Of a DNA stretch of 22,902 nucleotides, positions 3,007-22,850 are shown piece after piece. The position numbers and the translations under genes were made by a program. Numbering within the stretch: position 1 is the first letter of the stretch; each line of letters opens with the position of its first letter. Source of the stretch: a virus; IMG/VR virus record IMGVR_UViG_3300010885_017145, positions 1-22,902 of that record; one strand, given 5' to 3'. The notes under the pieces are model-generated. The model was not told the origin of the DNA. It saw only the letters and a program-made list of their open reading frames with translations, and ran no database searches.

Positions 3007-3061
3007 TTCACCCCTTGGGTATTTTGTGATAAACTTAATACTCAAGGGGTGAACCCTTTTT
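3007..3061 (+). terminator. Intrinsic terminator after the tail tube gene
   Basis: A 17-bp stem pairs 3007-3023 with 3037-3053 (TTCACCCCTTGGGTATT with its near-perfect complement; the single irregular pair is G-U). The loop is 13 nt. After the stem come CCC and five T (3057-3061). It lies 28 nt past the tube stop codon and 25 nt before the chaperone start. It would end most transcripts there and let a minority continue, lowering chaperone and tape measure levels relative to the tube. A run of A at 3001-3005 on the other side could make it work in both directions. Confidence 0.85.
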
Positions 3062-3085: not shown

Positions 3086-3391
3086 TTGAGCGATAAAAAT
3101 AAAGACATTTTGGCTGGAACAGAGATTCTGTTCGCAGATGGAAAGACAAGAACAATTAAGCCTTTGACAATTCGTAATCTTAGAAAGTTTATGAAAGTTG
3201 TTAAGGATCTTAAGAGTGAAGATACACTCAATGACGAAGATATTGATGTCATGGTGGAAGCTGCTGGTATTGCACTCGCAGCTGTTGACCCAGAATTGGG
3301 TAATGATAGAGAAAAACTTGAAGATGTGCTTGACCTTCGTTCATTCGGTGAACTGATGGCAGCCGCAATGGGTTCAGACCCTTCCTTCTAG
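3086..3391 (+). CDS. Tail assembly chaperone, short form (lambda gpG-like)
   Basis: A 101-residue, strongly charged protein (many Asp, Glu, Lys) of the kind that coats the tape measure during tail assembly and is absent from the finished virion. It opens with IKPLTIRNLRKFMKVVKDL, a typical chaperone start ('plt.r.lr.f...'), then acidic helices. Start is TTG at 3086 with AAGGATGG at 3071-3078 upstream; the frame has a stop at 3050-3052, leaving no ATG choice. The stop (TAG, 3389-3391) comes just after the predicted slip site, so most ribosomes make this short form. Its place between tube and tape measure is the standard one. Confidence 0.8.
   Translation: MSDKNKDILAGTEILFADGKTRTIKPLTIRNLRKFMKVVKDLKSEDTLNDEDIDVMVEAAGIALAAVDPELGNDREKLEDVLDLRSFGELMAAAMGSDPSF
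3379..3385 (+). promoter_or_regulatory. Predicted -1 ribosomal frameshift site (C CCT TCC)
   Basis: The downstream frame (-1 relative to the chaperone) has a stop at 3349-3351 and is open from 3352, so any slip must fall within 3352-3389. Within that stretch the best candidate is CCT at 3380-3382 preceded by C: a proline tRNA can re-pair on CCC at 3379-3381. It is not a textbook X XXY YYZ heptamer, since the second codon (TCC to TTC) re-pairs badly. The downstream stem starts 8 nt after this heptamer, the usual spacing for a stimulator. Another weaker candidate is GGT at 3371-3373, re-pairing on GGG. Confidence 0.55.
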
Positions 3392-3717
3392 GCGAAGAGG
3401 GGGCTGGTTCATCTGACCAATCTTGGGAAGATCTCCCTCTTCTAAAATACGAATCGGAAGTATTTGTCAAGACTGGGTCTTGGGTGAACTTTGAATCACT
3501 TGAGACCCATCTGACATTAAACGAATTATTTTTACTCTATCGTGCCTGCATGAATGAAACGAATACTGCGATGAAAATTGCCGCAGCTGCGCAAGGTGCA
3601 GAAGTAGATTTTGAAGAAGATTGGTATGACCCCGAACCACCTCGTGTTGCGCAAGCGCACGATATTTTGGATATGAAGTTTGGTATGGGTTATGAGGTGG
3701 TAAAAAAGAGTGATTAA
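3382..3717 (+). CDS. Tail assembly chaperone, frameshift extension (lambda gpT-like part of gpGT)
   Basis: This frame is the C-terminal part of the long chaperone. Reading on from the slip it encodes GEEGAGSSDQSWEDLPLLKY and continues without a break through the 92 nt after the short form's stop and into a helical, acidic domain (LNELFLLYRACMNETNTAMK, then an Asp/Glu/Pro stretch with EEDWYDPEPPR). The fused product would be 210 residues: 99 from the first frame (through the Pro codon at 3380) and 111 from the second. A free-standing gene could start only at GTG 3484, which has no ribosome binding site, so fusion is preferred. 'YRACMNETNTAMKIAAA' followed by 'EE.W.' resembles chaperone C-terminal domains that bind the tape measure. 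Confidence 0.72.
   Translation, partial: FLLGEEGAGSSDQSWEDLPLLKYESEVFVKTGSWVNFESLETHLTLNELFLLYRACMNETNTAMKIAAAAQGAEVDFEEDWYDPEPPRVAQAHDILDMKFGMGYEVVKKSD
3394..3442 (+). promoter_or_regulatory. Stem-loop likely to stimulate frameshifting
   Basis: GAAGAGGG at 3394-3401 pairs perfectly with CCCTCTTC at 3435-3442. The stem extends inward by a G-U (3402/3434) and a G-C (3403/3433) to 10 bp. The large loop holds a smaller possible hairpin (TGGT 3405-3408 with ACCA 3416-3419). It begins 3 nt after the stop of the short chaperone, inside sequence that is coding in the -1 frame, which is where frameshift stimulators sit. Confidence 0.6.
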
Positions 3718-3764: not shown

Positions 3765-6700
3765 ATGTCCGACACTGGTGACTTTGCAACACGAATAGGT
3801 ATAGAAGCGTCTGTATCAGGCGTTGAATCTGTTGCGGGCTTAAGCACTGGCGTTGCCTCTCTTTCCCAGCAATTAATTAATCTTTCTAATGCCGCATTAA
3901 AGGGTTTCTCTGTTCAAGAGCAGTTAAATGCGGCTATGGAAAAGACTAGAAGAAGCGTTGGTGCGCTGGCTTCTGCCAGAGTTGAAGAAGCAAAAAATAC
4001 TCAATTATCAATTCGGGCAACTAAAGAGTATACGCAACAATTAAACGCATTATCCCAGGCTCAATCAAGAGTGTCGGCTGCAGGGAAGATGACACCGCAA
4101 CTTGCGGCTGGTTTTAAAACGCAATCTACTTATCTTAATCAAGCTGCAGGAAGCGCTGGTGCTCTTGCAGATGCATTAAATAATCCAAACATTAGTCAAT
4201 TTGGAACTAGAATGATGAAGCAAGGTCAGGCTGCACAGCGTTCAGCTTACTATATGGCTGCAGCTACTATGCCATTGCTTCTTGGGTTGAAGTCAGCATT
4301 CTTTAGCATGCTAAAGCTAGAGACAGAAACAGTGAGATTGAAAAAGCTTGTTGGTGATGCTTTCTCTGGTGCAACTGATGCTGTAGAGCAAACTAATAAG
4401 GCAGTGAATGATCTTAGTCTTCAATTAGATAAGATAACTGAAAAGTTTGGTACATCAAGAGTGCTCATTCAAAGTTTGGCTGGAGACTTTGCTGAATTAG
4501 GTTTGCCGATTGATGCAATAGCTAGGCTTACTGAATTCACAGCTGCTGCTGAAAAATTAGGTAATCTTGATATCTCAGCATCTCAGGGTTTTATTCAATC
4601 TCTCTATCAAAATATTGTAAGAGTGAAAAGAGAAGCCTCTCAAGATTTGGGGCTGGCTTTTGATCTTACAGATGCAAATACGCTAGTTGAAGTTCTTGAT
4701 GAAATTCAAGGTCAACTTTCAATTTTCAACCTTGTTGAAAATAAAACATCTCTTTCATTGAAAGACATTGCTGATGCTTTTCCTGAAGCGTCTGCTGCTG
4801 CAACAACATTTGGTTTAACAGCAACAGAGACTGCGGCAATGTTGGTACCAATGGTCGCCGCTAATATGCAAGTTGGTGCGTCAGCAAACTCTATTAAGGT
4901 TTCTTTGCAAAGAATGGTTGCTGTTACAAAACAAAATACAGTAATGATGGATCAATTGAGTGGGTCTTTAGATAACTTCCATGTTTCGGCAGGTATCGGT
5001 ATGAGTGCAATTCAAGATCTTGTTGATGGCTTTGATGCACTTAAGGAAGCTAAGGGCGCTCAAGGTGCTCTGGAGTTCTTCTCTAGGTTGTTCGGTGTTC
5101 GTCAAGGTCCAAGAATGCTGACATCTTTTCAACAGATGGCTGCTTTTCAAAAATCAATGAATAACAGCGCAGCTGATGAATACACAATTTCTCAGCAATT
5201 GCAACAAAGTGTTAATGCTAGATTGACTGCAACAGGTCATGATGCGATACAAATAAAAAAAATAATAGATCTAACAACTCTGCACAGAGCGGCTATTGAA
5301 AAAGTAAACGGTAAATATACAGAAAGAGCTGAAGCGATTCAAAAGGGTCAAAAAGATGCAGACAAAGCATTAAAGGCTTCGTTTAAAGCTTCTAATAATA
5401 CAGCAGATTATCTCGGACAAGTCTCAACTGAGACTGGCAGAGTGTATTTTATGGAAGCAATTGGTGGTGTTGAGGGTGCAAATGCTGCGATGCAGCAGGA
5501 ATTGAATTACAGCATAAGTACTGTCACTACAAAATTTAATATTTTGCGTGAAACTATGCTTGGCATTGGTCGTTCTATCGTTCCAATTATTGGAGTCTTT
5601 ATTGACTTGCTTCTTCCAGTAGTTAAAAAGGTTAAAGCTTTTTTTGATGGCTTAAGTTTGACCACAAAGAAATGGATTGGTCTTATGTTGATTTTGCCAA
5701 TCTTAATTCCTCAAATGAAATTGCTGGGTGCTGCAGTTAAAATTGTTGCGGGTGGGCTTGCTCAAATGTGGACAAGATCAATATCTGGCTCAACTAGCAC
5801 TCTCAGAGCGATTAGGGGTTTAAAGACAGAATTAGTTAGCCTTGAGGATCTATTAAATAATCCAGGAATTACAAAAGGATATAATAAATTAACACAACAA
5901 GGTGACACTGATAAGTTTTTGTTACAACAAGATCCAAATCATGCTGGTTATAAAAAAGGGTTTTTAAATAGTAGAAAAATGAGACCAGGATCTGAAGGCG
6001 TTTCTTTGCCTCTTCAGGAAGTTTTGCAAAGGAATGGTGTTGTTGGTGCAACAGATAAGAAGTCAATAAAAGCCCTTATGGGTAAAGCAACAAAGACTGG
6101 TTTACCTGATACAGAAGCTTTGATTCATACAATGCTTACTAATCTAGGTGCTATGCCTGAAGAGATTGCGGCTGCAACTACGAAAGCTGCAGATAAAGCA
6201 GCTACGAGTACTGCAGATAAACTTACGAAGGCAATGAAAGGAACTATCTTCCAGAATAACACTTTTGTTGGAAACAAGTTTGGTGGTGGAACTTCTGGTC
6301 CAGGCGGTACTGGTACTGGACCACGCACTCCAAAAACTCCAACAACAGGTGGAACACCAACTGTGCCAACACCAACTGTGCCAACACCAACTGTGCCTGG
6401 TTCTACAATTCCTACGCCAACGGCTCCTACAGCACCAGCAGCACCAAGTCGCTACTTGACAGATTCAAGGTTTGATCAAGCCAGCACTAGAAAGATTTCA
6501 ATTCCATCGGCTAAAGACATGGGTAAGGCTGCAACGATTAGTGCACCTATTGCGGCAGGTGTTAAGGAAGTAGCTGATGAAGCTAAAGCTGAATTGGAAG
6601 CACTCAGTAAAACAGTTACAGAAGAAGTTGATAAAGCTGGCGATATTGTTAGAGAATCTGTTAAACCAAGAGCAAACACAACTCGTGGTTCGCCAAGGAA

Positions 6701-9700
6701 AGTAAAACAAACACTTGATGCAGTTGTTGGTGAAGCTGCTAGTGCAACAGTGGCTCCTGTAGCGGGAGCTGTTGAGGTAGTAGCAGAGTCATCAAAAGCA
6801 GCGGCTGATGTTGTTGGGCAAGCGGCTAATGATATAAAGAACGCTACTAAGGGGGCTACTGGAGCTGCTATAAAATCAGCCAAAACTGTGGCTTCTGGTG
6901 GTGGTGCTGGAAAAATTGTTTCTCTTTCATTTAAAGAAATGGCAGATGTTTTCCAAAAAGCTGGTGTTGCAGTTCCAGATGAATGGGCATTCATTAAGCA
7001 TGTAGATAGGGAATTTCAAGTTGCTCAAGGTCAAAAGAAAGCATTCCTGAAAAAACTTCAAGAACAAATTGCACTAAGTCCACAAAACCCATTTGGCGAG
7101 TTTGACGCTAATCCAACAGTTCAGAAAAGAAAGTTCTTTCCATTTAGATCAGCATACGAAAAATCGCAAAAATCAAGACCGACTGAAATCTTGTCTCAAA
7201 GGCATGCAACTAAGTTGCCAATATTTGAAGGTTTGTTTGAAGAACAATTAAAAGATCAAGGCAAAGCAATGCCAGGTCCAGAAAAGTCTTTGAGACAAAA
7301 TCTACTTAAGAAAATAAACAAACAAAAAAATAAACTTGTTGGTGGTGGTATAAAAGCCCAAGCTGAAAGCGCTGCAGCTGCTCAAGCATATCAAGACATG
7401 CTTGCAGCTAAGAGAGCAGCTGAATATGCTGCCTTAGATTCAATCAAGGGTGCTGTTATTCCTGAAGGTGTTGAAAATGTTCTTGTATCTTCAAGTCAAG
7501 AATATATTACTGAACTTGAAGATCAAGTTAAAGCTGCTCAATCTCAATTGAGTAAATTGGAAAATGATAGAGCTAAATTAAAAAATATTAGTGGTCCAAA
7601 AGCTGCACAGACTAGAAAGGCTATAGATGCAGCAATACAGTCTCAAAAAATAGAAGTTGAAACATTAAGGGATGCACTTGAGTATAATTCTTATAACCGC
7701 TTTGAAAGAATAATCCCAGCAACAAAAGCAGACACTGCAATGTTGATGGCTCAAACACATCCTGATATTGCAAGTCAATCTGGTATACAAAATTTTGCAA
7801 GGAATAAACAAGATTATAGTAATTTATTTAAATCGCATGTTTCATCAATTCCTGTTCAGGGTGTAGACGGTAAAGCAAGAGCATTGTACGAACTTGCATT
7901 AACTAAAGAAATGCAAACAATTTCTTCTTCAATGGATGAAGCTACGGCGGAAGCTATTGCCGAACGAATGAGGAAAGGTGCAGCAAGTAAAGCTGACGCA
8001 ATTAGAGATATTGCTAGACAAAAACTTAATATGGATGTCTACAATCCAATGTCTCAAGCGTATAATCCATCTGCTCAAGCTGATTTATTTAAGACAAAAG
8101 GTCTTACTACAGAGGCAAAAAAAGCATTTAAGGCTGCTGGTGGAAGTGACGAAGACGGCACTGCTCTTGGAAAGCATTTTACAGAAATGAGAAAAGAACT
8201 GTCGGCTGCAGCAACCGCTGCAAGAGCAAAATCAGCTGCTGATTTTGCTGTAGTAAGAACAGAATATATTGCAGCTGAAGAGGCTATGCGTTTTCCAAAA
8301 CCACCTGTTCTTCCGCCAAAAGGTGCACAGTCAAGAGGTATGTTTGGTATGGCTCGTGGTCTTATGGGACCAGGTGGTGCTTATTTTGCTAATGCTGGTG
8401 GTGCTGCTAAGGAAGCGGCTCTGGAAGCAACAAAGACTTATAGAGAGTTAGTAACTCAAACAATAGATAATATTGTTAACAAGCTTCCTGCATCAATGGG
8501 TGCAGTCAGAAAAGATCTTCTAAAAGCGGTCTCTGAAGAAGTATTGAGAATACAACCGCTTGGCGCTGGAAAGAATGCGAAGAAAGTTGCTCAATTGCTT
8601 GATATGTCAGTCATCCCTGAAACTCAAGGGAGAGTTGTAACCGCACTTGCTGCTGTTGAAAATCAAGTCGTTCAAGATTTTAGTAGAGCAGTAAATGAAG
8701 GTTGGACATATGCCGCATCAGAAACTGCCAAGACTGGTAAGAAAGCAGCAAATAATAGTATTGGTTTTTGGAGAAAGTCTCTTGGCTTGTTTGCAAAGAA
8801 TGGAGACGATTTAGCAGTAACATTGCAGGGCGTTGTCTACGACATGATGACTTCTGCTTCTGTAGGTCTTAATGATTTAGAAGATCAGATTTCATCTGGC
8901 GGTTTTACAAAAGCTAAATTGAAAGCAAAGCTTGTTGGTGATGATGGTCTTCTTTCTAGAGTGACTCGTCAAAGAGCAGGCGAGAGTGGGCTTCTCAAGC
9001 CTATCATCCGACCAGTAGAAGAACCAGTTCCAACGGAAACTGTAGAGAAAGTTAAGTCTGTCAAAGCTAAGGAAGAAAACACATCTACTACTGAAATTGA
9101 CACAAAAACTACGGAGCAAAATGTTGTTTCAACAGAAACAAATACAGCGGCAACAGATGAAAATACTGCTCTTACAAAAACGGAAACAATAGCGACAGAG
9201 AAATCTGCCGTTGCTACGGAAACATCTGCTGTTTCCACAGAAGTTGACGCTGCTGCTACATCTGCTCACACTGCAACAGTAGAAGCCAGCACTGCTGCCA
9301 CTGGTAGAAGTATTGCTCTAACTAATTTGATGAGCAGGGCAGATGCATTGCTTGTCGGAGCAAAATCTCAACAAATTGCTTTGATTGATGCACAGATAGC
9401 AGGATTGACTGCAGAGCAGTTGTCAAGCAAAGCTGGTGCATCTCTAGTAGCACAAAGAAATGAGGTCAGTAAGAAACTGGCTACATTGGAAACTGTAAAA
9501 GCTAAATTAATAAAAGCTGAGAATGCAACCATAGAGAATGGTCTTGGGGCAAGAAATGCTAACTTAGTTAAAGCAAAAGCTGACTTTGAAAAAGCTGTTA
9601 AGAATGCTTCAAAAGAATTTGATAAGTTAAAAACTGTTGCTGCTTCTTCAGCGAAAGAATTAGCAAGTGCTGCTTCATCTGTTGCCCCTGCTGCTGGCAC

Positions 9701-12700
9701 AAAGACTGCCCCTGCTGCTGGTACAAAGACTGCCCCTGCTGCTGGCACAAAGACTGCTGCTACCACTGCTGGCTCTGGTGCTGTAAGAACAGCATCTAGG
9801 AAAACTATACACATTGCAGAAGATGTAGCTAAGAAGGGTGGAGCTTCTGGAATTATTAAAGCAATTGAAAAGCAAACATTACAGTTTGATAGTTCTCTTG
9901 CAAACTTCTTTAAGGGTCCGAATTTCTTCCAAGGTCCAAACATCTTTCAAGGGAAGATTATAACTGCAGATAAGTTAAATCTTAAGATTAAGGATTCTGG
10001 TAAAGCCGCTAAGGATTCAGCAAAAGCTTTAACATCTGAAGATCCACTTGTTAAGCAAGCAAGAGGCAGAAGAGCTTATACCGAATTATTAAAGAGACAG
10101 GAAAGTAAAAAAGGTGTTCCTTATTCTGATGCGCAGAAAGATAGATTAGCAAGGCTTGTTGGTTTTAAGAAGCCAACAATGCCAGCTGCAATGGCAGCAA
10201 CTAAGGCTTCTGATATGAAGGCGAGAGTTCTTGCAAATATTGCTGCGTCAAAAGCAGCAACTGAAGCCGCAAAAGATGCAGCAAAGATGGGTGGTCTTAG
10301 GTCTGGAATCTCCACTGGCAAATCTGGTGGTTTTGCTGCGTTGTCTAAGCCAATCCCTATTTTCCCAGGCTTAGCAAAGATGACTGCAGGTGTGGGTGGA
10401 TCTTTTGATAAAATTACCAAAAAAATTAGTGTACTCGGTGAAGTTGGCAAGAAAGTAACTTCATTAATTTCAAATGGTTTTAGGTCAAGCTCTTCATTGG
10501 CTGGCAAAGCGGTTGAAACTTTTGCACAAAAGTTTGTAAACAGATTCTTAAGTATGTCAAAAGCTGGAATTGCCGCTAGCTCCAATATGACAAAAGCTAT
10601 GACATATATTCTTTCTGCTACTAAAGTAACCATTAAAGAATTTGAAAGAGTAAATAAGTATTTGAAATTGATGGGTCGTATTGACTCATCAATTGCTAAA
10701 TCAATGAAAAACTCTGCTAGAGAAGTTTCATTTGTATTGCGAAATATAGGCACGGTTGTTAAAACTGATTTGATTTCTAATTTTGCAATTCTAAAATCAT
10801 CATTGGCAAATAGTAAAGTTTTGAAAATTTGGTCTTTCTTATTATTCACTGGAATGACAAGGGGTGCTGGCGCAGTAGGTTTATTGATTAAAGGCGTAAA
10901 GGCTTTAGGCACTAATGCACAAAGAGTTGAAGCAGTTAGATTGTCGCTTTCAAAATATTCAGCTTTAAGAGAGGCAAGAGGTCTTTCTCGCACAATACCA
11001 TTGTTCCAAAAATTAATTGTCGCTGGTAGCGCATACACAGGTATCGGAAGAGGAATCAAGACCGTATTCTCAGCGGCTACTAAAACAATATTTAATATGA
11101 TTGGCGTTGCTATGAAATTAAACGCTTCGTTGATGATGATAGCTCCAGTAGTTATTCTCATAATGGGTCTTATTATTGGATTGAAATCTGGACTTGCTGG
11201 AACAAAAGGCTCAACTGATAATCTTAAAGAAGCTTGGAGAGCAATAAAGGAAGCAATCCTAGCTTTGGCTAGACCATTGATGGACTTGATTGGTGTCTTT
11301 GGTGGTCTTGGTAAAGCATCCTCTGGGGCTGGAGCAGTTTCTAATGCCTTGAATACTATGACTAGAGCAGTTAAGGCTGGCGCTCAAGCGTTTGAAAGAT
11401 TCGCCAAAGGTCCTGGTGTCCAGTTCATGAAGAATGTTTTGGTGCCAATTGTTACTCGTTTAGTTAATAGATTTATTATGCTCGGCAGGGCTATTGCTGG
11501 ATTGTTTAAAAACGATAGTGCTGCTGCTGCAAAAAATTTCACAGGTTTGTTCTTGTCTCTTGCTTGGGAAGCCGTGAATGCAATACAAAAAATATTTAAA
11601 ATTCTGGCTGAGATTCTTCCAGCGATGGGACCAATCTTGGCTTCTATGATAGAAGCTGTTCTTAATGCAACAATAGATGCATTTATGTATATTATGAATT
11701 TTGGAAAAGAAGTTGCTTTGTTCTTTGGAGTGATGTTAACCACTATTGGCTTGGCTCTTTCCGTGTTCACTGGTGGAGCGTTCCTTCCTGTTGCTGGGTT
11801 TGGTGCCGCATTGATTGCAGCAGCTGGTGCTGCTTCTTTGCTAGATAGGCACATTGGCTCGGTAAAAAAGAAAGTTAAAGGATTCTCAAATACGCTAGGC
11901 AAGGGCATTGCTGATGGCTTAGGCGCAGCAGCTGGTTATATACAAAAAGATATGTTGGGATCTATCAAGGACAAGATTTCTGAAAAATATGGTGAAGCAA
12001 TGGGTAAAGATATAAATGAAGCTTTAACCAACACCATGAAAGACCCAGCCGATGTCAAGAAAGCCATAGCGGATGCTCTCGGTGGTGCTGTTAAAAACCC
12101 AGAGGCTGCAAATGCGGCTGGAGAATCTTTAGGTTCAGCCATAGCTAAAGGTATAAAAGACAAGTTAATTTCATTGAAAGAAGATTTTACGGGCGCTTTC
12201 TTTGGTAAAGCTGATGACCAAGTAAGCAAGATTGTTGATGATTATAAGTCAGCGATTGATAAGCAAAAAGAAGCTGCTCTAAAGGCTTTTGACACTCAAG
12301 TTGAGGCAATTGAAGCACTTGGAAAAGCTGAAGAAGAACTCACTGCGAAAATGGATTATGAAGAAAAACGCAGAGAGATGATTAAAGAAAGAGCAATGAA
12401 TAAAGAAAATTATTTAAGAGAAAGGAAGATTGCTAAGTACGAAGGTCGTACAGAAGATGTCCGTTCTCTTGATCTTTCATTTAGAAAAACAGATAAAGCC
12501 GCTGGAAAAGAAATTACCAATCTAGACACGGATAGGGCGAAGACACTCCAGGAGCAGCAGAGGGCGATTGCTATTTCAGTCATTAACCGTGAAAAAGATA
12601 TTATGGCAGAAACATTTGATGAAATGCAAAAACAATTTGATATCAATCTTGCCAAAATATTGAATAAGGGCTTTTCAACAAAAGAAGAGTTTGACTCTTT

Positions 12701-15700
12701 GCTGAAAGAAATTGGTGGGGCTGCACAGGGCTTTTCTGGGGAGATTAATAAAGTATTTGAAGATACAATGTTTGCTCTTCCTTCAACTATTGCAAAATAC
12801 ACAGACCCATCAGTAGGAATGTTCAGTATAACAATGGACAAGCTTGTTACACAGGCGCAGATGGCATTTGGTGCAAATTTAAAAACTGGCGATGCCAAGT
12901 CAATACTGGGCGCTGCATATGCAATGGCTAATGGTCTCCCTGATGCATTCAAGCAAGCGTTTAGTGATGGAATAGTTACTGAATCGGTAACTCCTTTTGT
13001 TACAAAGATTACAACAATAATGGGTGGAGTTAATGTTGACACAATTTGGATAGAGGCTGGAAGGTCTGCAATTGAAGCAATGATTGGAGAAATGAAGCGC
13101 AAATTGCGTGCTTTGCGTGGGGATCTCTATGATGAGTTTAAAACATTGTTTGCTGGGATGGGTGCTGACTACAATCAACTTTTCCCAGAGCTTGAAAGGC
13201 TTGCAAAGCAAATTGCAAAAATTGAAGCAATCAGATCGCAAAGCGGTGGCGGTGGCGGTGGAGATAAGGTTAAAAAGCCTGTTCCCCCTGGTGGCGGTGG
13301 AATGGGCGATGACAAGATTGACCCGAAAGCATATTCCGATGGCACTCCAGACAAGATTGGGTATAAGACAGTGCCAGATAAGAAGGGTAGCGGTTTCTTT
13401 GGTGGAATAATGGATGGCATGAAATCATTGGTTGACTACCTTGGACCTGTTAAGACAGCAATTCTCGGAGTTGTCGGTGTGTTCGCTGGATTCTTTGCTC
13501 TACAAGGATTGTTTAGCGTAATAGCTAGCGCATTTGAAACAATGATGATTATCGCTATGTATGCAATCCAACCGATTGGAACAGCGGTAGCTGGTATTAG
13601 CGCTGGAGTTGCTGCTGTAGTTGCTGCAATTGCTGTAGTTATTGGCGTAATCATATATATGTATATTAGGTTTAAATGGTTTAGAGATATGGTTAATGAC
13701 ACATTTAAGAGTGTTATTGATTTCTTTGTTACTGGCTTTAAGATGCTTAAAGATCCTGTCATGGGTTTCTTGGGCGCAGTTTGGGACGGAGTAAAACAAA
13801 TATTTGATTCGCTCTTTGGTCCAATTATTGATTTTGGTAAAAAAATAATAGCTGGTATTTTAATTGCTATTGGTGGAGTTGTTGCTGCAATAGTCGTAGT
13901 TCTTCGTGGAATTTCAATTGCACTTGATTTTATCAAAGAGCCATTGTTCAAGATAATCGGTTGGGTCATAAATCTTGCTACTGGAATAGTAAATGTTCTT
14001 GCAGATATTATCTCTGGGGCGATTGACTTTGTTTACAAGATTATCGGAGCGCTGTTCTCAGTTGGAATTGGCGGTCCAATCAAGCTTATTATTGGAGCAT
14101 TTAAAATTGCATTTGACATTATTGTTGGAATAGTTAAGATAGCAATTGATTTGATTATTAAGGCATTTGATTTCCTTAAGGGTGGATTGTCTGGTCCATT
14201 TGAAGTTGGATTTGGAATTATTAAAGACATCTTTAATAAGATAAAAGATATTGTTTCTGGAGTAATTGATTTTGTAAAAGGCATATTTAGCGGGCTTACA
14301 AGTCCTCTATCAGGTCCATTTGAAACTATTTTGGGGATTATTGAAACAGTGTTTGAAAAGATAAAGGGTGTTATTTCTGGAGTAATTGATTTTGTAAAAG
14401 GCATATTTGACGGTTTTGATATGGCACCTTATGCTAAGCCAATAATAGCTCCATTTAAAATTGCATTTGATTTTATTAAAGATATCTTTGGAAAAATATC
14501 TGGTGTTGTTGCGGATGTCTTTGGAAAAGTATTTGATGTGTACACGGCTATCTGGGGGAAAATATTTGATGTTGTTAGAGGAGTGTTTGAAGGTATAGTC
14601 TCATTCCTCCAGCCAATTGCGGAAACTATATTAAAGATTCTAATTGCTCCATTTAAAATATTGTTTGATGTATTTAAAGCAATTGCGAATAATCCAATAG
14701 TTGGTTTCATTGCAAGAGTGGTTGCTGGTCTTGCAATATTTGCTGCAATTATAGCGACTTGGGGTGTAAAATTTGCATTTGAGTTGCTAGCTGACACGAT
14801 TCAGTGGGTGTGGGAAAAAGTTAAAGCCCTTGCTGACGCTATATGGGATATACTTGGTGTAGCGTTTTCTTGGCTTGGAGATAAAATTTCTGCAGTATGG
14901 AATGCAATTTCCGATACATGGAATAAAATAACTGCTAAATTCCGAGAGTTCAAAGAGTGGTTCAATTCAAATTTTGGATCTCTTTGGAATCTTGTGTTTC
15001 TCCCCTTTGTTCTAATCTATGAAGGCATAAGATGGGTCTTCAATTATATAAAGGAACACGCTGGTCCGATAATCAAAGAATTCTGGCAAAATTTTAAAGA
15101 CCGTATTGATGCTGTCTGGGACAAGATAACTGCTTTTGCTGACTGGGTTTCTAATATCTTTAGTGCTGTTTGGGATGCCATTAGACCAATGATTAATAAG
15201 TTCTGGGAAGGTCTCAAGGATGCTATCGGTAGTGTTTGGGATGCAATAACAGGATTTGCTGACTGGGTCTCTAATGTGTTTGGCGGTATATGGAGTCGTA
15301 TAAAAGATATAGTATCTAGCGTGTGGGGTGGAATAAAAGATGCCGTAGATATTGTTTGGAATAAGCTACTGGATTTTGCTCTTTGGCTTAATAATATATT
15401 TGAAGCGGCATGGGATAGTATTGGACCTATAATTTCTGCCCTCTGGGATGGTCTAAAGAAATCCGTTGATGTTGCATGGAATGCATTAAAAGATTTCGGT
15501 TCTTGGCTGTCAGATGTATTCCATAAGATATGGGATGGCATCGGTCCAGTAATACAGAAAGCATGGGATGGCATAGTCGCAGCAGTTGATTATGTATGGG
15601 AGAAATTAAAAGCATTTGCCTCTTGGCTGAACGACAAATTAGGAGGTGCATGGAATGCAGTTTCTGATATCATTTCTAAAGTTTGGGATAAGATTACCAG

Positions 15701-17387
15701 TGGTGTCGCATTAGTTAAAGACAAACTTATTGAGCTTAGGAATTGGCTGTTAGATAAATTAGGAATGTCGTGGGAAGAGTTCAAGTGGAAAGCCGTTATA
15801 GTTTTTAAAATAATCAAGCGGGAACTTAAAAAAGTATATGACAAACTACGAGATTTTGCTTCTTGGCTAAAGGATAAGTTGAGTGGTGCATGGGATGCTG
15901 TATCTGAAGCCGCAGGGAAGCTTTGGGATTTAATACAGGCAGGTTGGGATAAAGTTGGTCCAGTTCTTGGGTGGATATGGGATAAGGTAACTGCTCTGGC
16001 TGGTGCAATCAAGGATAAGCTCCAGCCAGCGTTTGAAAAAATTAGCGAGGTCATTCAAGATCTTTGGGAGATTACTGAACCAATATTTGGTTACTTCTGG
16101 GACAAGTTAATCTGGCTTGGTGGAATAATTAATGATTATGTCATCGGACCTTTCAGAATTCTATGGGATCTTATTGTTGCTGGATGGAATCTTGTTAAAC
16201 CAATATTTGAAGCAATGTGGGATTGGCTTGGACCGAGAATTGGTCCAGTTATTGATTATATAAAAGAAGGTTTCCATATAGTTTGGGACACCATAGGAAA
16301 GGGCTGGACTTGGGTTAAAGATATATTTAGTGGTATGTACGATTGGCTCAAAGATAAGATTGGATCAGCTGTTAGTAAATTAGCAGATCTATGGGATAAA
16401 GTTTGGGATTCTATAAAGAAGGGCTGGGATTGGGTTAAGGGCATATTTAGCGATATGTACAATTGGCTTAAGGATAAAATTGCCTGGGTCCTTGATAACA
16501 TAAGAGAACTATGGGACAAATTTGTTAACAAAATCAAAGACACATGGAATGGTATTGTTGAAATTTTCCAAAAAATAAGTGACAAGATTAGAAATGCAAT
16601 TGGCGGCGCAATTGCAAATATAGTTGAAAAGTGGAATGACTTCACGGCAAAGATGGACGAAATTTGGGAACAAGTTAAGACTATTGCAACGAACATTGGT
16701 AATTGGATTAAAGATAAAATCGGTGGAGCTATTAACTTCATTAGAGACTTAATAGGTCTTATACCAGCAACATTTAAAGGTGTAGTCAATATTATTATTA
16801 ATGCTTGGAATACCATGTGGAAGAAAATGGACTCGGTTGCTTTCCCGAAGACTATTTGGGGCATACCACTGCCACCATTTATGGCTGGAAAGAGCATTAG
16901 TGATTATATTAATCTTCCTTTGATTACGGAATTGAAATACAACGGTGGGAAGGTTGGTACCTACATGAAGGGCGGCATGGCATATGGTGATGGCGGTATG
17001 ACTTACGGTCCTGCTCAACAGGGTATCCCAGCTGTCTTGCATGGTGGTGAGTATGTCATTAATCATAAGGCAGTACAGAGGATTGGCACTGATACACTAG
17101 ACAGGCTTAATAATTACAGACTCTCTAAGCCAAACTTGCCAACAATGCCATCTGTCCCTAATATTAAGATGCCAGCAGTTGGGGCGAATAATCCACAGTA
17201 TGCACAGTCAGGAACTAACTCCACGCAGAATGTAAACATTTATGTGGATAACTTTATTGGTGAGCCAGAGTGGTTTAACACAATGATGAAGACATATAAC
17301 ACAACAGTGCTGCCAAGAAATCAGAAATCAGCTGGTCTTGAGAGTCGTGTTATAAATTCATACAATGGATTAAATAGAGGTTTGTAA
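3765..17387 (+). CDS. Giant tail tape measure protein (4540 residues)
   Basis: This protein spans the inside of the growing tail, sets its length, and is later ejected ahead of the DNA. Order of parts: residues 28-105 coiled coil; 160-183 hydrophobic; about 185-620 the conserved N-terminal tape measure region (TP901/PhageMin_Tail type, ending in 'RETMLGIGRSIVPIIGVFI'); 637-669 hydrophobic; 846-896 Pro/Thr linker with TPTVP repeats; 897-1771 Ala/Lys helices (clear coiled coil 1244-1309); 1773-1856 Thr-core heptads; 1974-1997 APAAGTKT repeats; hydrophobic clusters 2452-2480 and 2650-2693; charged coiled coil 2817-2965; Gly linker 3160-3185; hydrophobic 3231-3303, 3361-3387 and 3647-3672; Trp repeats 3678-4325; and a C-terminal GIPAVLHGGEYVINHKAV motif (4426-4433 = HGGEYVIN) seen in many tape measures. 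No lysozyme, transglycosylase or peptidase motif was found. The start at 3765 lacks a ribosome binding site. Confidence 0.95.
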   Translation: MSDTGDFATRIGIEASVSGVESVAGLSTGVASLSQQLINLSNAALKGFSVQEQLNAAMEKTRRSVGALASARVEEAKNTQLSIRATKEYTQQLNALSQAQSRVSAAGKMTPQLAAGFKTQSTYLNQAAGSAGALADALNNPNISQFGTRMMKQGQAAQRSAYYMAAATMPLLLGLKSAFFSMLKLETETVRLKKLVGDAFSGATDAVEQTNKAVNDLSLQLDKITEKFGTSRVLIQSLAGDFAELGLPIDAIARLTEFTAAAEKLGNLDISASQGFIQSLYQNIVRVKREASQDLGLAFDLTDANTLVEVLDEIQGQLSIFNLVENKTSLSLKDIADAFPEASAAATTFGLTATETAAMLVPMVAANMQVGASANSIKVSLQRMVAVTKQNTVMMDQLSGSLDNFHVSAGIGMSAIQDLVDGFDALKEAKGAQGALEFFSRLFGVRQGPRMLTSFQQMAAFQKSMNNSAADEYTISQQLQQSVNARLTATGHDAIQIKKIIDLTTLHRAAIEKVNGKYTERAEAIQKGQKDADKALKASFKASNNTADYLGQVSTETGRVYFMEAIGGVEGANAAMQQELNYSISTVTTKFNILRETMLGIGRSIVPIIGVFIDLLLPVVKKVKAFFDGLSLTTKKWIGLMLILPILIPQMKLLGAAVKIVAGGLAQMWTRSISGSTSTLRAIRGLKTELVSLEDLLNNPGITKGYNKLTQQGDTDKFLLQQDPNHAGYKKGFLNSRKMRPGSEGVSLPLQEVLQRNGVVGATDKKSIKALMGKATKTGLPDTEALIHTMLTNLGAMPEEIAAATTKAADKAATSTADKLTKAMKGTIFQNNTFVGNKFGGGTSGPGGTGTGPRTPKTPTTGGTPTVPTPTVPTPTVPGSTIPTPTAPTAPAAPSRYLTDSRFDQASTRKISIPSAKDMGKAATISAPIAAGVKEVADEAKAELEALSKTVTEEVDKAGDIVRESVKPRANTTRGSPRKVKQTLDAVVGEAASATVAPVAGAVEVVAESSKAAADVVGQAANDIKNATKGATGAAIKSAKTVASGGGAGKIVSLSFKEMADVFQKAGVAVPDEWAFIKHVDREFQVAQGQKKAFLKKLQEQIALSPQNPFGEFDANPTVQKRKFFPFRSAYEKSQKSRPTEILSQRHATKLPIFEGLFEEQLKDQGKAMPGPEKSLRQNLLKKINKQKNKLVGGGIKAQAESAAAAQAYQDMLAAKRAAEYAALDSIKGAVIPEGVENVLVSSSQEYITELEDQVKAAQSQLSKLENDRAKLKNISGPKAAQTRKAIDAAIQSQKIEVETLRDALEYNSYNRFERIIPATKADTAMLMAQTHPDIASQSGIQNFARNKQDYSNLFKSHVSSIPVQGVDGKARALYELALTKEMQTISSSMDEATAEAIAERMRKGAASKADAIRDIARQKLNMDVYNPMSQAYNPSAQADLFKTKGLTTEAKKAFKAAGGSDEDGTALGKHFTEMRKELSAAATAARAKSAADFAVVRTEYIAAEEAMRFPKPPVLPPKGAQSRGMFGMARGLMGPGGAYFANAGGAAKEAALEATKTYRELVTQTIDNIVNKLPASMGAVRKDLLKAVSEEVLRIQPLGAGKNAKKVAQLLDMSVIPETQGRVVTALAAVENQVVQDFSRAVNEGWTYAASETAKTGKKAANNSIGFWRKSLGLFAKNGDDLAVTLQGVVYDMMTSASVGLNDLEDQISSGGFTKAKLKAKLVGDDGLLSRVTRQRAGESGLLKPIIRPVEEPVPTETVEKVKSVKAKEENTSTTEIDTKTTEQNVVSTETNTAATDENTALTKTETIATEKSAVATETSAVSTEVDAAATSAHTATVEASTAATGRSIALTNLMSRADALLVGAKSQQIALIDAQIAGLTAEQLSSKAGASLVAQRNEVSKKLATLETVKAKLIKAENATIENGLGARNANLVKAKADFEKAVKNASKEFDKLKTVAASSAKELASAASSVAPAAGTKTAPAAGTKTAPAAGTKTAATTAGSGAVRTASRKTIHIAEDVAKKGGASGIIKAIEKQTLQFDSSLANFFKGPNFFQGPNIFQGKIITADKLNLKIKDSGKAAKDSAKALTSEDPLVKQARGRRAYTELLKRQESKKGVPYSDAQKDRLARLVGFKKPTMPAAMAATKASDMKARVLANIAASKAATEAAKDAAKMGGLRSGISTGKSGGFAALSKPIPIFPGLAKMTAGVGGSFDKITKKISVLGEVGKKVTSLISNGFRSSSSLAGKAVETFAQKFVNRFLSMSKAGIAASSNMTKAMTYILSATKVTIKEFERVNKYLKLMGRIDSSIAKSMKNSAREVSFVLRNIGTVVKTDLISNFAILKSSLANSKVLKIWSFLLFTGMTRGAGAVGLLIKGVKALGTNAQRVEAVRLSLSKYSALREARGLSRTIPLFQKLIVAGSAYTGIGRGIKTVFSAATKTIFNMIGVAMKLNASLMMIAPVVILIMGLIIGLKSGLAGTKGSTDNLKEAWRAIKEAILALARPLMDLIGVFGGLGKASSGAGAVSNALNTMTRAVKAGAQAFERFAKGPGVQFMKNVLVPIVTRLVNRFIMLGRAIAGLFKNDSAAAAKNFTGLFLSLAWEAVNAIQKIFKILAEILPAMGPILASMIEAVLNATIDAFMYIMNFGKEVALFFGVMLTTIGLALSVFTGGAFLPVAGFGAALIAAAGAASLLDRHIGSVKKKVKGFSNTLGKGIADGLGAAAGYIQKDMLGSIKDKISEKYGEAMGKDINEALTNTMKDPADVKKAIADALGGAVKNPEAANAAGESLGSAIAKGIKDKLISLKEDFTGAFFGKADDQVSKIVDDYKSAIDKQKEAALKAFDTQVEAIEALGKAEEELTAKMDYEEKRREMIKERAMNKENYLRERKIAKYEGRTEDVRSLDLSFRKTDKAAGKEITNLDTDRAKTLQEQQRAIAISVINREKDIMAETFDEMQKQFDINLAKILNKGFSTKEEFDSLLKEIGGAAQGFSGEINKVFEDTMFALPSTIAKYTDPSVGMFSITMDKLVTQAQMAFGANLKTGDAKSILGAAYAMANGLPDAFKQAFSDGIVTESVTPFVTKITTIMGGVNVDTIWIEAGRSAIEAMIGEMKRKLRALRGDLYDEFKTLFAGMGADYNQLFPELERLAKQIAKIEAIRSQSGGGGGGDKVKKPVPPGGGGMGDDKIDPKAYSDGTPDKIGYKTVPDKKGSGFFGGIMDGMKSLVDYLGPVKTAILGVVGVFAGFFALQGLFSVIASAFETMMIIAMYAIQPIGTAVAGISAGVAAVVAAIAVVIGVIIYMYIRFKWFRDMVNDTFKSVIDFFVTGFKMLKDPVMGFLGAVWDGVKQIFDSLFGPIIDFGKKIIAGILIAIGGVVAAIVVVLRGISIALDFIKEPLFKIIGWVINLATGIVNVLADIISGAIDFVYKIIGALFSVGIGGPIKLIIGAFKIAFDIIVGIVKIAIDLIIKAFDFLKGGLSGPFEVGFGIIKDIFNKIKDIVSGVIDFVKGIFSGLTSPLSGPFETILGIIETVFEKIKGVISGVIDFVKGIFDGFDMAPYAKPIIAPFKIAFDFIKDIFGKISGVVADVFGKVFDVYTAIWGKIFDVVRGVFEGIVSFLQPIAETILKILIAPFKILFDVFKAIANNPIVGFIARVVAGLAIFAAIIATWGVKFAFELLADTIQWVWEKVKALADAIWDILGVAFSWLGDKISAVWNAISDTWNKITAKFREFKEWFNSNFGSLWNLVFLPFVLIYEGIRWVFNYIKEHAGPIIKEFWQNFKDRIDAVWDKITAFADWVSNIFSAVWDAIRPMINKFWEGLKDAIGSVWDAITGFADWVSNVFGGIWSRIKDIVSSVWGGIKDAVDIVWNKLLDFALWLNNIFEAAWDSIGPIISALWDGLKKSVDVAWNALKDFGSWLSDVFHKIWDGIGPVIQKAWDGIVAAVDYVWEKLKAFASWLNDKLGGAWNAVSDIISKVWDKITSGVALVKDKLIELRNWLLDKLGMSWEEFKWKAVIVFKIIKRELKKVYDKLRDFASWLKDKLSGAWDAVSEAAGKLWDLIQAGWDKVGPVLGWIWDKVTALAGAIKDKLQPAFEKISEVIQDLWEITEPIFGYFWDKLIWLGGIINDYVIGPFRILWDLIVAGWNLVKPIFEAMWDWLGPRIGPVIDYIKEGFHIVWDTIGKGWTWVKDIFSGMYDWLKDKIGSAVSKLADLWDKVWDSIKKGWDWVKGIFSDMYNWLKDKIAWVLDNIRELWDKFVNKIKDTWNGIVEIFQKISDKIRNAIGGAIANIVEKWNDFTAKMDEIWEQVKTIATNIGNWIKDKIGGAINFIRDLIGLIPATFKGVVNIIINAWNTMWKKMDSVAFPKTIWGIPLPPFMAGKSISDYINLPLITELKYNGGKVGTYMKGGMAYGDGGMTYGPAQQGIPAVLHGGEYVINHKAVQRIGTDTLDRLNNYRLSKPNLPTMPSVPNIKMPAVGANNPQYAQSGTNSTQNVNIYVDNFIGEPEWFNTMMKTYNTTVLPRNQKSAGLESRVINSYNGLNRGL
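6354..6398 (+). repeat. Three tandem 15-nt units (TPTVP) in the Pro/Thr linker
   Basis: Units at 6354-6368, 6369-6383 and 6384-6398 each encode TPTVP. They differ only at the last base (CCA, CCA, CCT). They lie in a low-complexity Pro/Thr linker (residues 846-896) between the conserved N-terminal region and the helical body of the tape measure. Confidence 0.9.
9081..9332 (+). repeat. Twelve 7-residue repeats with Thr in the core (tape measure 1773-1856)
   Basis: The 84 residues from T1773 to M1856 fall into twelve units of seven with no gap. Position 4 is Thr in 11 of 12 units (Val in one) and is followed by Glu in 7 of 12. Position 1 is Thr, Ala, Val or Ile throughout. Examples: TSTTEID, TKTTEQN, TIATEKS, AVSTEVD. 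Positions 1 and 4 match the a and d core sites of a coiled coil, here filled mainly by Thr/Ala instead of Leu. The DNA has diverged, so the pattern is kept at the protein level. Confidence 0.85.
9684..9755 (+). repeat. Three tandem 24-nt units (APAAGTKT)
   Basis: Units at 9684-9707, 9708-9731 and 9732-9755 are identical except for one silent base (GGC/GGT) and encode APAAGTKT three times (residues 1974-1997). Near-identity of the DNA points to recent duplication, probably by slippage. They lie between two coiled-coil stretches and likely form a flexible spacer. Confidence 0.92.
14185..14550 (+). repeat. 40-residue imperfect tandem repeats in the tape measure
   Basis: Two units (SGPFEVGFGIIKDIF... 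and SGPFETILGIIETVF...) are 120 nt apart, followed by a more diverged third (APFKIAFDFIKDIF...). They share 'GPFE..-GII...F.KIK..-SGVIDFVKGIF'. A 35-nt stretch is identical between 14254-14288 and 14374-14408, so the last duplication is fairly recent. They lead into the Trp-rich region. Confidence 0.8.
14796..16740 (+). repeat. Tryptophan-rich repeat region of the tape measure (residues 3678-4325)
   Basis: About 60 Trp occur in about 650 residues, against very few elsewhere in this protein. They recur in units such as VWDKITAFADW-VSNIFSAVWDAI, with Trp or Phe about every 7-12 residues and Asp/Asn after many of them. Trp/Phe at near-11-residue spacing is an established hallmark of tape measure repeats. 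Units are diverged at the DNA level, so copy number is best counted from the protein. Confidence 0.85.
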
Positions 17388-18854: not shown

Positions 18855-21800
18855 ATGCTTCAGTACGGGTTGTATGATAAAGAGATATCCAATTCGTTTG
18901 ATGCGGCTATAAATGCAATATCTCAAAGTGTAAAGCCATTAGTTATGGTTGACTGGCTTGATAGTCGGCACATTGATAAATATTCAAATACCGAGATTGC
19001 TAGTAGTAATGATACCTGTACCCAGAAATCTGAAGCTACGGTTAATTTAAATGTTACTGGGATGTTGTCCAGTGGAAGGTCACTCTCTGCTAATGAGAAT
19101 CTTTTTAACAGATCAAGAGGTAGGGATTTTTATTTTACTCCAAATGAGTCAATTAATGGGATAGAACGCCAATCTTTTACATGGGCAGTGTGTGATGCAA
19201 AAGATGTTAATGGTAAAACAATTACGGCTAATGGGCAGTGGCACTGCCTTCCCACCACTAAAGAGGAAAATTATGAATTTGGGTATCAATCATCAACTAA
19301 AAGCACGGGAACTTTACATTCAACTTTAAACGGGTACCAATTTTCTTCTCCAGTTATATTGACATATGTTTTTACAGAGAGAAAAGTTAATTTACTTAAA
19401 GTAATTACATCTGAATATAATGGTCAAATTAAAGCTTATAATATTAAAGCTTATAATAATACAAGTAATTTAGTATACAACCAAGATGCAGAGATCCCTG
19501 ATGACAATTATTTCTTTGAGCACTATCTTGATGGTGTTACATCAAATGATATTAACAAAATTTTATTAACAATATACACAACAAAAAACTCATACGACTA
19601 TGCAAGAATTAATGAAATGTGTCCAATTTACAGGTTGGACATGACAGATTATGTTATGAATTTTAATGTTTCAAAAGTAAGAGATGTACATGAGACAAGC
19701 CTGCCTATCGCTGGAAGCGGCAGTAATACATCTTCAATTACATTTGATAATGCCCTAAAAGACTTCAATCTTTTCAATTCTAACTCAACTTTTGGAAAGT
19801 ATATGAAAAAGGACATTCGTTTTAATATTTATGCTGGGTGGGAAATACATCCTGTTGATGACATATATACTGACGCTCTTCTGAATGCCAGTATCACATC
19901 TACAAGCACAACATGGAATGTGAATAGCGTTAATGATTTCCCTGCTGGTGGTGTTGGGGATTACTACCTGCTCACTATAGAGCCAGGTACTGTAAATAAA
20001 GAAATAGTTATTGCAACAAAAGGTTCGGGCAATACATTTACAATAATTCAGCGTGGAGTTGGAGGCACAGCCGCTCGTGCCCATAACTCTGGGTCTATAG
20101 TTAGATTTGATAAGTATGAGTATGTCCCATACGGGACATTCTATGTTGATGAATGGCAAGGTTCGTCATCAAGCATGACGGTTAGTGCAAACTTAACTGA
20201 TAGAAGTAAATTCGGTCAAGAAAAAATGTTGACAAAAGGATTCCTGCTACAGGATTCAACCGTAGCGGAAGCTGTTGAGCATTTACTATTGATGACTAAT
20301 TTTCCAAAATCTGATATTCAATATTTATCAAATCCAGCAAAAACTTATAAAAAAAATAATGCCATTCTACATTATGGGTTTGATGAGAACAGTATAGATA
20401 GGGCTAATTCGCAAAAGGTTGTCTCAACTTCGTTAAGAGCCAGGTTTGTACAGGTTCCAGGAACTGATTTAAATTCAGTTCGTGATATAAAGCTTGACGC
20501 TAATGATAGGGAATTGAACACATATGAAAAAGCGCTTGATGTAAAAGCTTTCATATCGCCATCGTTAACAACCACATCAGCAGCGATTTCTACGAGTAAT
20601 TCCCTAGCCCTTGATTTCATCAGTGGGCAATTTACAAATAAAGATGGCGATGTTGTTAATGAATACTTTAATGGTGTGTTTGATGGATATTATGTTCCAT
20701 CTGCTACTGGAACATATTCTTTTGTAATTGGCATTAATAAAGGTGGGTTTCGTGTTTACTTGAATAAGGTAAGGATCATTGATGAATGGAGAATTATTGA
20801 TTCTGGCACTAGCTCACAGGAGTATTTTTTTTCTGGTGAGTATGACCTGACAGCTGGCAACCCATATGAATTAAGAATTGAGTTTTTTACAGAGCAATAT
20901 GTAAGCGGCGAACCATTTAAAATATCTCTTGGAAGGGAATATAACGGTACTCAAGACAACATATATGCAGCTGAATGCTACACAATGGTCGCTAGCGATA
21001 GGATTGGAAATAAAAATGATTATTCTTATTTAACTTTTGCATCAAATTCATGGACGCAAACTGCAGGTGTGAACTTGATTGAAAGGTCTGCTAGAAGAAA
21101 TGATGCTATCTATAAAGGCTCAGTTTCTATATCCCAGCCAAGCGGCGTAGTGTCTGATAGCGCAAATAAGAGTGTGCTACTTGCTTCAAATTCTTATTTA
21201 AGAACGCCATATCATATATCTTATGATGTGTTCAATACATCATCAAATTCTTATACTGGTGAATTCAGTATTCAGCTTTATGCAAAATTTCATAACGGAT
21301 CTTTTTCTAGTGATGGTGAGTATATTAGCAATTGGAGCAACTCAACTTCAAACGCTGGTTTTGAATTTTTTAATAATTCATCATCTAATGGCTTTAAATT
21401 TAAAACAAGTACTGGTACGCAGACCGTAAGCAGTAATACTGCTCTATCTAGTTCTGTATACAATCATATTGCGGTTACATATAAAAATAATTCTATTAAG
21501 TATTATGTAAATGGAGCTTTAGCTAATACAGTAACCACAACAGGTAATCTTGCCGCTTTTACTGGTAAGAGTTTAACCTTTGGCGGCAGAGGGGCGGCAT
21601 TCACCTCGGGTTCAGAAGTAGCACCCGCAACGATTAGAAGCTTTTATATTGATGAATTTGCAATCTTTAATAAATGCCTACCTAGTCAACAAATAACTAA
21701 TGATTATATTGAAACACAAATGAAAGAAGCGAGGGTGATGCCATTTATTTATGGTAATGATGCCTCAGTTCAGCAGATCATTGACAATATAAGCCTTGCT

Positions 21801-22850
21801 GATTTTGGAAGATTATATATAGACGAAAATAATAAAGCTAGGTATGAACATTTTAATAGATTCTTTGAATCATCAATAGACCAGCATGCCAATATCCAAT
21901 ATGAGTTATCTGATTCTTCAAACATTATTGATGCAAGTTACAATGTTCAGCTGCAAGCTAATAAAATAGTTATAAAAGTGAATGGCGTTGCAAATAATTT
22001 GATTGAGAAGCAAAGCCTATGGCGTGCTGAAGACCCCACGACATTAGGTGTCACTAAATTGTCTTCATCAATGGCGAATAATGATTTGAGTATGAATGTT
22101 TTATCAACTGATAATCCTTATTTTGCCAAATCTGGTTATTTAAAAATTGATAATGAAATTGTTAAATACAGCAATACCACAAGTAACTCGTTCTTGACAT
22201 TGGAAAGAGCACAATTTGACACATTTGCTGCATCTCATAACTCAAATACTTTAGTAAGAGAAGCTAAGAACTACGACTTGCTTTTTGATAAAGCTCCAGC
22301 GTTTAAAATAGAGAACCCTTTAATCACAAACTTGTCTACTGTCAATCCAGCAATGATTGAATTGGTTAAATACAACCCAACTCCGTATGGTGCTAAGCTG
22401 ATATTGGCTGCATCTAACAATACCGTTAGTGGAGATATTGTTTACATTGAAGGCGAGAACCCGTTGACTGGGGAAAAGCATTTTGCTGGAATTGCTGGTA
22501 TCCCCGTGATCATTACTGATAAAACTGGGGATGTCAAAGAGCAAAAAGCTGTTCTTGATGACAATGTAAGAAAATATGGCTTAAAAGAAATTGTAATAGA
22601 AAACGAATTTATTACAGACCTTGCGCACGCACAAAGTTTGGCGGATTTTATTATTTCTAAAATGTCAGATCCTGTGCCAGTTCTTAATTTAAATATATTG
22701 CCTATACCTAAATTGCAATTAGGAGACAGAATTCGGATATCTACAATGGATTCTTTTGATATAATTAATGGTGACTATTGGTTGATAAGTACAGATTTCT
22801 CGTATGCGGAAAGTTTGACGCAATCAATTGTCATAAGGAAGGTTGTTTAA
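18855..22850 (+). CDS. Tail tip hub / adhesin with PA14-like and LamG-like insertions
   Basis: A 1331-residue protein abutting the previous gene (TAAATG), with GGAAGAGG at 18842-18849. Order: 1-330 N-terminal hub part (YRLDMTDYVMNFNVSKVRD...FNIYAGWEI); 339-420 a small beta module (EIVIATKGSGN, RGVGGTAARAHNSGS); about 425-510 more hub; about 560-715 a PA14-like domain (FNGVFDGYYVPSATGTYSF, then FRVYLNKVRIIDEW); about 770-955 a LamG-like jelly roll (FSIQLYAKF, HIAVTYKNNSIKYYVNG, YIDEFAIFNK); 965-1331 C-terminal hub, holding a second module of the RG/AAxH kind (1059-1137; IDNEIVKYSN, ERAQFDTFAASHNS). The ending LQLGDRIRIS...YWLISTDFSYAESLTQSIVIRK is typical of Tal/gp27-like hubs. The hub closes the tube and the insertions probably bind surface glycans. 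I saw no peptidase or lysozyme motif. Domain calls are by pattern. Confidence 0.72.
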   Translation: MLQYGLYDKEISNSFDAAINAISQSVKPLVMVDWLDSRHIDKYSNTEIASSNDTCTQKSEATVNLNVTGMLSSGRSLSANENLFNRSRGRDFYFTPNESINGIERQSFTWAVCDAKDVNGKTITANGQWHCLPTTKEENYEFGYQSSTKSTGTLHSTLNGYQFSSPVILTYVFTERKVNLLKVITSEYNGQIKAYNIKAYNNTSNLVYNQDAEIPDDNYFFEHYLDGVTSNDINKILLTIYTTKNSYDYARINEMCPIYRLDMTDYVMNFNVSKVRDVHETSLPIAGSGSNTSSITFDNALKDFNLFNSNSTFGKYMKKDIRFNIYAGWEIHPVDDIYTDALLNASITSTSTTWNVNSVNDFPAGGVGDYYLLTIEPGTVNKEIVIATKGSGNTFTIIQRGVGGTAARAHNSGSIVRFDKYEYVPYGTFYVDEWQGSSSSMTVSANLTDRSKFGQEKMLTKGFLLQDSTVAEAVEHLLLMTNFPKSDIQYLSNPAKTYKKNNAILHYGFDENSIDRANSQKVVSTSLRARFVQVPGTDLNSVRDIKLDANDRELNTYEKALDVKAFISPSLTTTSAAISTSNSLALDFISGQFTNKDGDVVNEYFNGVFDGYYVPSATGTYSFVIGINKGGFRVYLNKVRIIDEWRIIDSGTSSQEYFFSGEYDLTAGNPYELRIEFFTEQYVSGEPFKISLGREYNGTQDNIYAAECYTMVASDRIGNKNDYSYLTFASNSWTQTAGVNLIERSARRNDAIYKGSVSISQPSGVVSDSANKSVLLASNSYLRTPYHISYDVFNTSSNSYTGEFSIQLYAKFHNGSFSSDGEYISNWSNSTSNAGFEFFNNSSSNGFKFKTSTGTQTVSSNTALSSSVYNHIAVTYKNNSIKYYVNGALANTVTTTGNLAAFTGKSLTFGGRGAAFTSGSEVAPATIRSFYIDEFAIFNKCLPSQQITNDYIETQMKEARVMPFIYGNDASVQQIIDNISLADFGRLYIDENNKARYEHFNRFFESSIDQHANIQYELSDSSNIIDASYNVQLQANKIVIKVNGVANNLIEKQSLWRAEDPTTLGVTKLSSSMANNDLSMNVLSTDNPYFAKSGYLKIDNEIVKYSNTTSNSFLTLERAQFDTFAASHNSNTLVREAKNYDLLFDKAPAFKIENPLITNLSTVNPAMIELVKYNPTPYGAKLILAASNNTVSGDIVYIEGENPLTGEKHFAGIAGIPVIITDKTGDVKEQKAVLDDNVRKYGLKEIVIENEFITDLAHAQSLADFIISKMSDPVPVLNLNILPIPKLQLGDRIRISTMDSFDIINGDYWLISTDFSYAESLTQSIVIRKVV

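Follow-up and report, generated by a model that had tools for sequence, protein, structure and literature searches.

A phage tail assembly chaperone with a predicted programmed −1 frameshift at the non-canonical heptamer C CCT TCC

The question raised by this locus is how ribosomes could reach the second of two overlapping reading frames in a phage tail module when no canonical slip heptamer is found where the two frames overlap. The window, which is the whole stretch of DNA that was analysed, corresponds to a phage contig deposited as a virus record of 22,902 bases. In its tail module, a major tail protein (2398-2979) is followed by a gpG-like ORF (3086-3391), an extension in the −1 frame that runs to 3717, and an ORF of tape-measure size (3765-17387), all on the plus strand. 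The same order (major tail protein, G, T extension, tape measure) is found for lambda G/GT and the chaperones of other dsDNA phages, and the lambda arrangement of a short product and a −1 fusion, with the slip near the end of G, is also shared, as read here from sequence comparison. The gpG-type chaperone is encoded in the zero frame from a TTG start and comprises 101 aa ending in GSDPSF-UAG; by tblastn it presented 33-38% identity to Streptomyces phage genes annotated as 'tail assembly chaperone', and it matched phrog_10504 (E 3.5e-12), for which no function is named. The upstream neighbour was identified by tblastn against Streptomyces phage major tail proteins (36-38% identity, E values down to 1e-29) and by phrog_2175, 476 and 885. 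The downstream neighbour, of 4540 aa, was assigned as the tape measure protein from its ORF and its placement, which is that of annotated Streptomyces phages, and it gave no tape-measure match in Pfam. Both the major tail protein and gpG match Streptomyces phages of the Stanwilliamsviridae, whose records name the corresponding genes major tail protein, tail assembly chaperone and tape measure.

The −1 frame is closed by a TGA at 3349-3351, open over 3352-3714 and terminated by a TAA at 3715-3717, in agreement with the original prediction that it would be open from 3352 and encode a chaperone C-terminus. The extension itself, a T-like domain recognised from its frame and from homologue comparison, spans 3385-3717, and thus two overlapping frames, the second in −1, lie between the major tail protein and the tape measure, as in G/GT. 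Inspection of the sequence also agreed with the earlier statement that the overlap (3352-3391) holds no classic X_XXY_YYZ heptamer. The slip heptamer of lambda is G GGA AAG, whereas the one proposed here, C CCT TCC (3379-3385, read as CCC TTC in −1), does not follow the X_XXY_YYZ form. It is followed by an 8-nt spacer (3386-3393) that includes the zero-frame UAG (3389-3391) and then by the presumed stimulatory stem, whose 5′ arm, GAAGAGGGGG (3394-3403), begins just after the stop and whose 3′ arm, CTCCCTCTTC (3433-3442), lies within the codons of the extension's conserved PLLK motif. The pairing of GAAGAGGGGG with CTCCCTCTTC comprises 10 bp with one G·U, and the combination of C CCT TCC and a stem after 8 nt was therefore recovered as first described.

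Homologues were collected by scanning IMG/VR with gpG and the extension, which yielded several hundred loci, 421 of them with a readable gpG end and 404 with the extension in −1. The 17 loci without the extension in that frame (for example, L406, L409 and L418; L319 and L371 end soon after gpG) were left out, and, as the same contig was often fetched more than once in overlapping pieces, distinct sequences are the count to use. In 401 of the 404 loci, C CCT TCY, C CCA AAY or C CCG GAA was found at the same place. These loci comprise 135 distinct sequences, of which 49 carry C CCT TCC or C CCT TCT, 70 carry C CCA AAC or C CCA AAT, and 16, from Streptomyces phages and their relatives, carry C CCG GAA. 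The site of the window is invariably C CCT TCC or C CCT TCT in its own group (49/49 distinct homologues) and aligns with C CCA AAC/T and C CCG GAA in remoter relatives. The other three loci (L393, L395 and L407) are distant, are devoid of the Asp-Pro slip site and present a canonical A AAT TTA in the same region. As in G/GT, a slip site in the overlap is thus conserved across homologues, which supports the predicted tail-chaperone −1 frameshift with its slip at C CCT TCC; since relatives have a canonical heptamer at this position, namely C CCA AAC, its description as an unusual version of a conserved device also proved apt. The chaperones of Stanwilliamsviridae (LukeCage, Coruscant and Annadreamy) share homologous proteins, gene order and a slip at the same Asp-Pro codons, but their heptamer is C CCG GAA (Boydwoodruffvirinae) or C CCA AAT (Loccivirinae), and their zero frame extends 10-18 codons past the slip.

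Several distant gpG relatives, including L406, L415, L418 and L422, presented no long −1 extension. Some extension-less relatives end in GAT CCT TCC or GAC CCA TCT, which resemble the slip codons, and their −1 frame closes within ~30 nt.

It might be supposed that no frameshift occurs and that the second ORF is an independent gene translated from a start codon of its own, as it is annotated as an ORF of its own in several Streptomyces phage records, and a GTG is available at 3484 in the window. However, this first candidate start lies downstream of the extension's conserved WED(I/L)PLLKYESE motif, and 43 of the 49 distinct homologues have no ATG, GTG or TTG in the extension frame before the conserved WEDIPLLKYESE part, while the first candidate start shifts between 3 and 64 residues past the slip. 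In the Yaboi record, this gene is annotated as a join of two pieces, and an independent start would leave both the heptamer and the covarying stem described below unexplained, which makes a separate gene highly improbable. Even less credit can be given to transcriptional slippage or a sequencing indel, in favour of which nothing specific was found: the longest run at the slip site is three bases, and the same arrangement recurs in 49 distinct sequences from many separate assemblies.

The place of the shift is delimited by stop codons. A −1-frame stop immediately upstream was found in 28 of the 135 distinct sequences, so that the heptamer is the first place where the shift can happen; such a stop occurs in four C CCT TCY sequences (L069, L070, L181 and L262), and in L069 and L070 a zero-frame stop directly after TCC confines the shift on both sides. 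The original prediction further proposed that the slip could be assisted by the nearby UAG, which would then be waiting in the A site. The zero-frame stop does lie 0 or 1 codon past the heptamer in all 49 C CCT TCY sequences; however, a sense codon intervenes in 36 of them, placing the stop outside the A site when CCT and TCC occupy the P and A sites, the triplet varies among UAG, UAA and UGA, and the stop is 10-18 codons away in the C CCG GAA relatives and many of the C CCA AAY ones. Assistance by the stop was thus not supported and is considered very unlikely. An alternative slip site in the window, G GGT TCA, was rejected, as it is not conserved and is excluded in relatives that have a −1 stop between it and the heptamer. 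A Shine-Dalgarno-like stimulator was sought 6-17 nt upstream of the slip site and was found in none of the 49 C CCT TCY sequences.

The downstream stem was evaluated by the pairing of its arms. Taken alone, the fold of 3377-3447 was not significant (z −1.2; 30 of 200 shuffles were as good). The stem register differs among subgroups, and with more than one register in use among the relatives a fixed-column pair count was weak; for this reason, an arm-swap test was used, in which the pairing of each sequence's own 5′ and 3′ arms was compared with that of arms from other homologues over 20,000 permutations. Cognate arms paired at −17.7 kcal/mol versus −14.7 kcal/mol for swapped ones (z −8.0, p 5e-5), and none of the 20,000 permutations was as good. 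The covariation held in 21 representatives less than 85% alike (p 5e-5) and, separately, in the C CCA AAY relatives (z −5.3), while control segments shifted by 27-108 nt or taken upstream showed no effect. Relatedness, which is partly left by the permutation, is an unlikely cause of the covariation because it holds among dissimilar representatives and the control segments are null. A downstream structure, which is common, although not universal, in G/GT-type systems, is therefore present with covarying arms, and the stem would likely act as a stimulator of the shift. Comparison among homologues thus shows the −1 extension, the exact slip site and a conserved stem with covarying arms. We consider the device genuine and conserved, a programmed −1 frameshift of familiar type whose heptamer departs from the classic rule, and its conservation points to shifting by ribosomes.

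The codons of the slip site are themselves constrained. GAC CCT was invariant in the 49 distinct homologues and was followed by TCC in 46 and TCT in three, whereas conserved prolines elsewhere in gpG vary freely, with four proline codons used in the PLTI motif and three in the DPEL motif. TCC accounts for only 24 of the 588 serine codons in the window's genes (4%). Because GAC CCT TCY is invariant while other prolines vary and TCC is scarce, the slip arrangement is far beyond chance. This conservation on its own would nevertheless be compatible with the slip of a single tRNA, as the same bases encode Phe in the −1 frame.

Such a slip was the mechanism first proposed for this locus. In this case, only tRNA-Pro would re-pair, from CCU to CCC (a C_CCU tetramer), UUC would be read as Phe, and the shift would be driven by the stem, with GSDPFLLGEEG as the junction. 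The only feature that never changes among the three alleles is a proline re-paired at CCC, and the re-pairing of tRNA-Ser in the A site is imperfect, both of which favour this alternative. In addition, C_CC.U was among six tetramers clearly above background in E. coli when combined with the IS3 pseudoknot (Sharma et al. 2014, PMC4066793), and the C_CCU tetramer is contained in the natural site. However, the tetramer alone is weak in E. coli, and the natural site also constrains the following codon, which would be free in a tetramer, although −1 frame coding could be the cause of this constraint. Although TCA, AGT, AGC and TCG account for 63% of serine codons in the window, the next codon at the slip site is TCY in 49/49 homologues. 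Moreover, C_CC.A and C_CC.G exceeded background only 1.8- to 3.6-fold in that work (PMC4066793), yet these proline codons occupy the homologous site, followed by AAY or GAA. Finally, a proline-only slip leaves unexplained that, in all three alleles, the proline codon ends with the base that opens the following codon (A-A, T-T and G-G). The single-tRNA mechanism is therefore possible but disfavoured by this match and by the re-pairing of the A-site codon in −1 across the alleles, and we hold it as a minority reading.

The reading that we consider the most probable, with some reserve, is a lambda G/GT-type programmed −1 frameshift of the tail chaperone by tandem slippage at C CCU UCC with a middle G·U. 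Most ribosomes would terminate at the UAG and produce gpG, whereas a minority, held up by the stem 8 nt downstream while tRNA-Pro and tRNA-Ser occupy their P and A sites, respectively, would shift back one base at C CCU UCC. In this event, tRNA-Pro would re-pair from CCU to CCC, tRNA-Ser(GGA) would exchange UCC for UUC with a G·U at the second codon position, and reading on into the extension would produce gpGT. After a tandem −1 slip, tRNA-Pro would stand on CCC in every allele, and the A-site tRNA on AAA (from AAY, the third position being imperfect), UUC (from UCY, middle G·U) or GGA (from GAA, middle U·G); both non-canonical A-site codons would thus re-pair with exactly one middle G·U. The A-site residue differs by allele (Asn, Ser or Glu), and the ability to re-pair is retained. 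Tandem slippage is favoured because the wobble-base match and A-site re-pairing are common to the three alleles and a proline-only slip needs neither. The heptamers shared at one place by 401 of 404 loci, the codon invariance, the pinning upstream −1 stops, the tree described below, the covariation of the stem arms, the gene position and the G:U idea of PRFect also contribute to this view. The tandem mechanism with its middle G·U, the participating tRNAs, the efficiency of the shift and the role in tail assembly are our inferences; in G/GT-type systems, the fusion protein is produced at a low ratio and is required for tail assembly. The two mechanisms differ by one residue at the junction, which is predicted to be GSDPSLLGEEG for the tandem slip (GSDP-S-LLGEEG) and GSDP-F-LLGEEG for the single-tRNA slip, the latter being the peptide given in the original prediction. 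Against tandem slippage, ribosomes normally treat a G·U at the second position of the A-site codon as near-cognate and discriminate against it, and the best motifs in E. coli allow cognate A-site re-pairing (Sharma et al. 2014, PMC4066793), which counts against a middle G·U. The match in the A site may also be incidental in part, given that C_CC.U by itself is weakly shift-prone in E. coli.

A related proposal is made in the PRFect paper (PMC10885494), which describes a hypothetical 'threetwotwo' motif whose commonest form, CCCGGAA, would mimic the classic motif through G:U pairing, an idea put forward there for both CCCGGAA and GGGGGAA. Taking the pattern from the motif name and the CCCGGAA example, the site of the window conforms to it as CCC TT CC, sharing the three-two-two run and an A-site re-pairing through a middle G:U. 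The present site differs in being the pyrimidine form, CCCTTCC, in which G35·U replaces U35·G, and in that its C CCT TCT variants break the run pattern while keeping the re-pairing. No paper on CCCTTCC or CCCUUCC as a slip site was found by title and abstract in the open-access literature. The device would thus be ordinary and its slip letters a little-described variant, of a type that frameshift predictors, which mainly seek X_XXY_YYZ, overlook.

The history of the alleles was traced on a tree of 132 fusions from which the slip codons were omitted. The three alleles need three changes in all. C CCG GAA forms a single group with full support and a separate single origin, whereas C CCT TCY is nested within a grade of C CCA AAY sequences, with 47 members in a single group and the other two, L260 and L262, beside C CCA AAC relatives. 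The tree is consistent with only one or two origins of C CCT TCY and is compatible with either gain or loss; intermediate forms such as C CCT TTC were not encountered among the homologous loci. The chances appear evenly balanced that phages adopted, on two or more occasions at a single homologous site, non-canonical heptamers with second-position G·U re-pairing in the A site (UCY to UUC and GAA to GGA). If true, the slip rule would be extended, Watson-Crick pairing at the first position together with a middle G·U being sufficient, and this would explain many tail-chaperone frameshifts without X_XXY_YYZ. With three alleles, canonical and non-canonical, at one homologous site in at least 135 distinct sequences, the G:U idea of the 'threetwotwo' motif becomes testable.

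Regarding the host, WhiB proteins are encoded by nine of the ten longer records of relatives and, among 14 control genomes, only in Corynebacterium; from the relatives' records, the host is probably actinobacterial. A scan of bacterial genomes revealed no gpG relatives, hence no prophage or host link. The tRNAs of related phages include Arg, Ala, Asn, Thr and Leu, with no Pro or Ser among those read.

Other features of the module were also observed. An intergenic hairpin between the major tail protein and gpG (3007-3053) has an outer stem of 17 bp (z −6.5); in most of the ten sequences inspected, the stem letters vary with pairing kept, and the loop TTGTGATAAACTTAA is near-constant. It matched no Rfam family at threshold and could be a terminator, a processing site or a promoter-bearing element. 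At the tape-measure site of related records, the longest open stretches range from ~1890 to 4650 codons, and one reaches at least 6248 codons, the fetched region ending inside it. Tape measures usually scale at 1.5 angstrom per residue, by which the 4540-aa ORF would correspond to a tail of ~0.7 micrometre. Further downstream, a tail protein of 1331 aa (18855-22850) carries a PA14 domain and a concanavalin A-like lectin domain and is a candidate host-binding protein.
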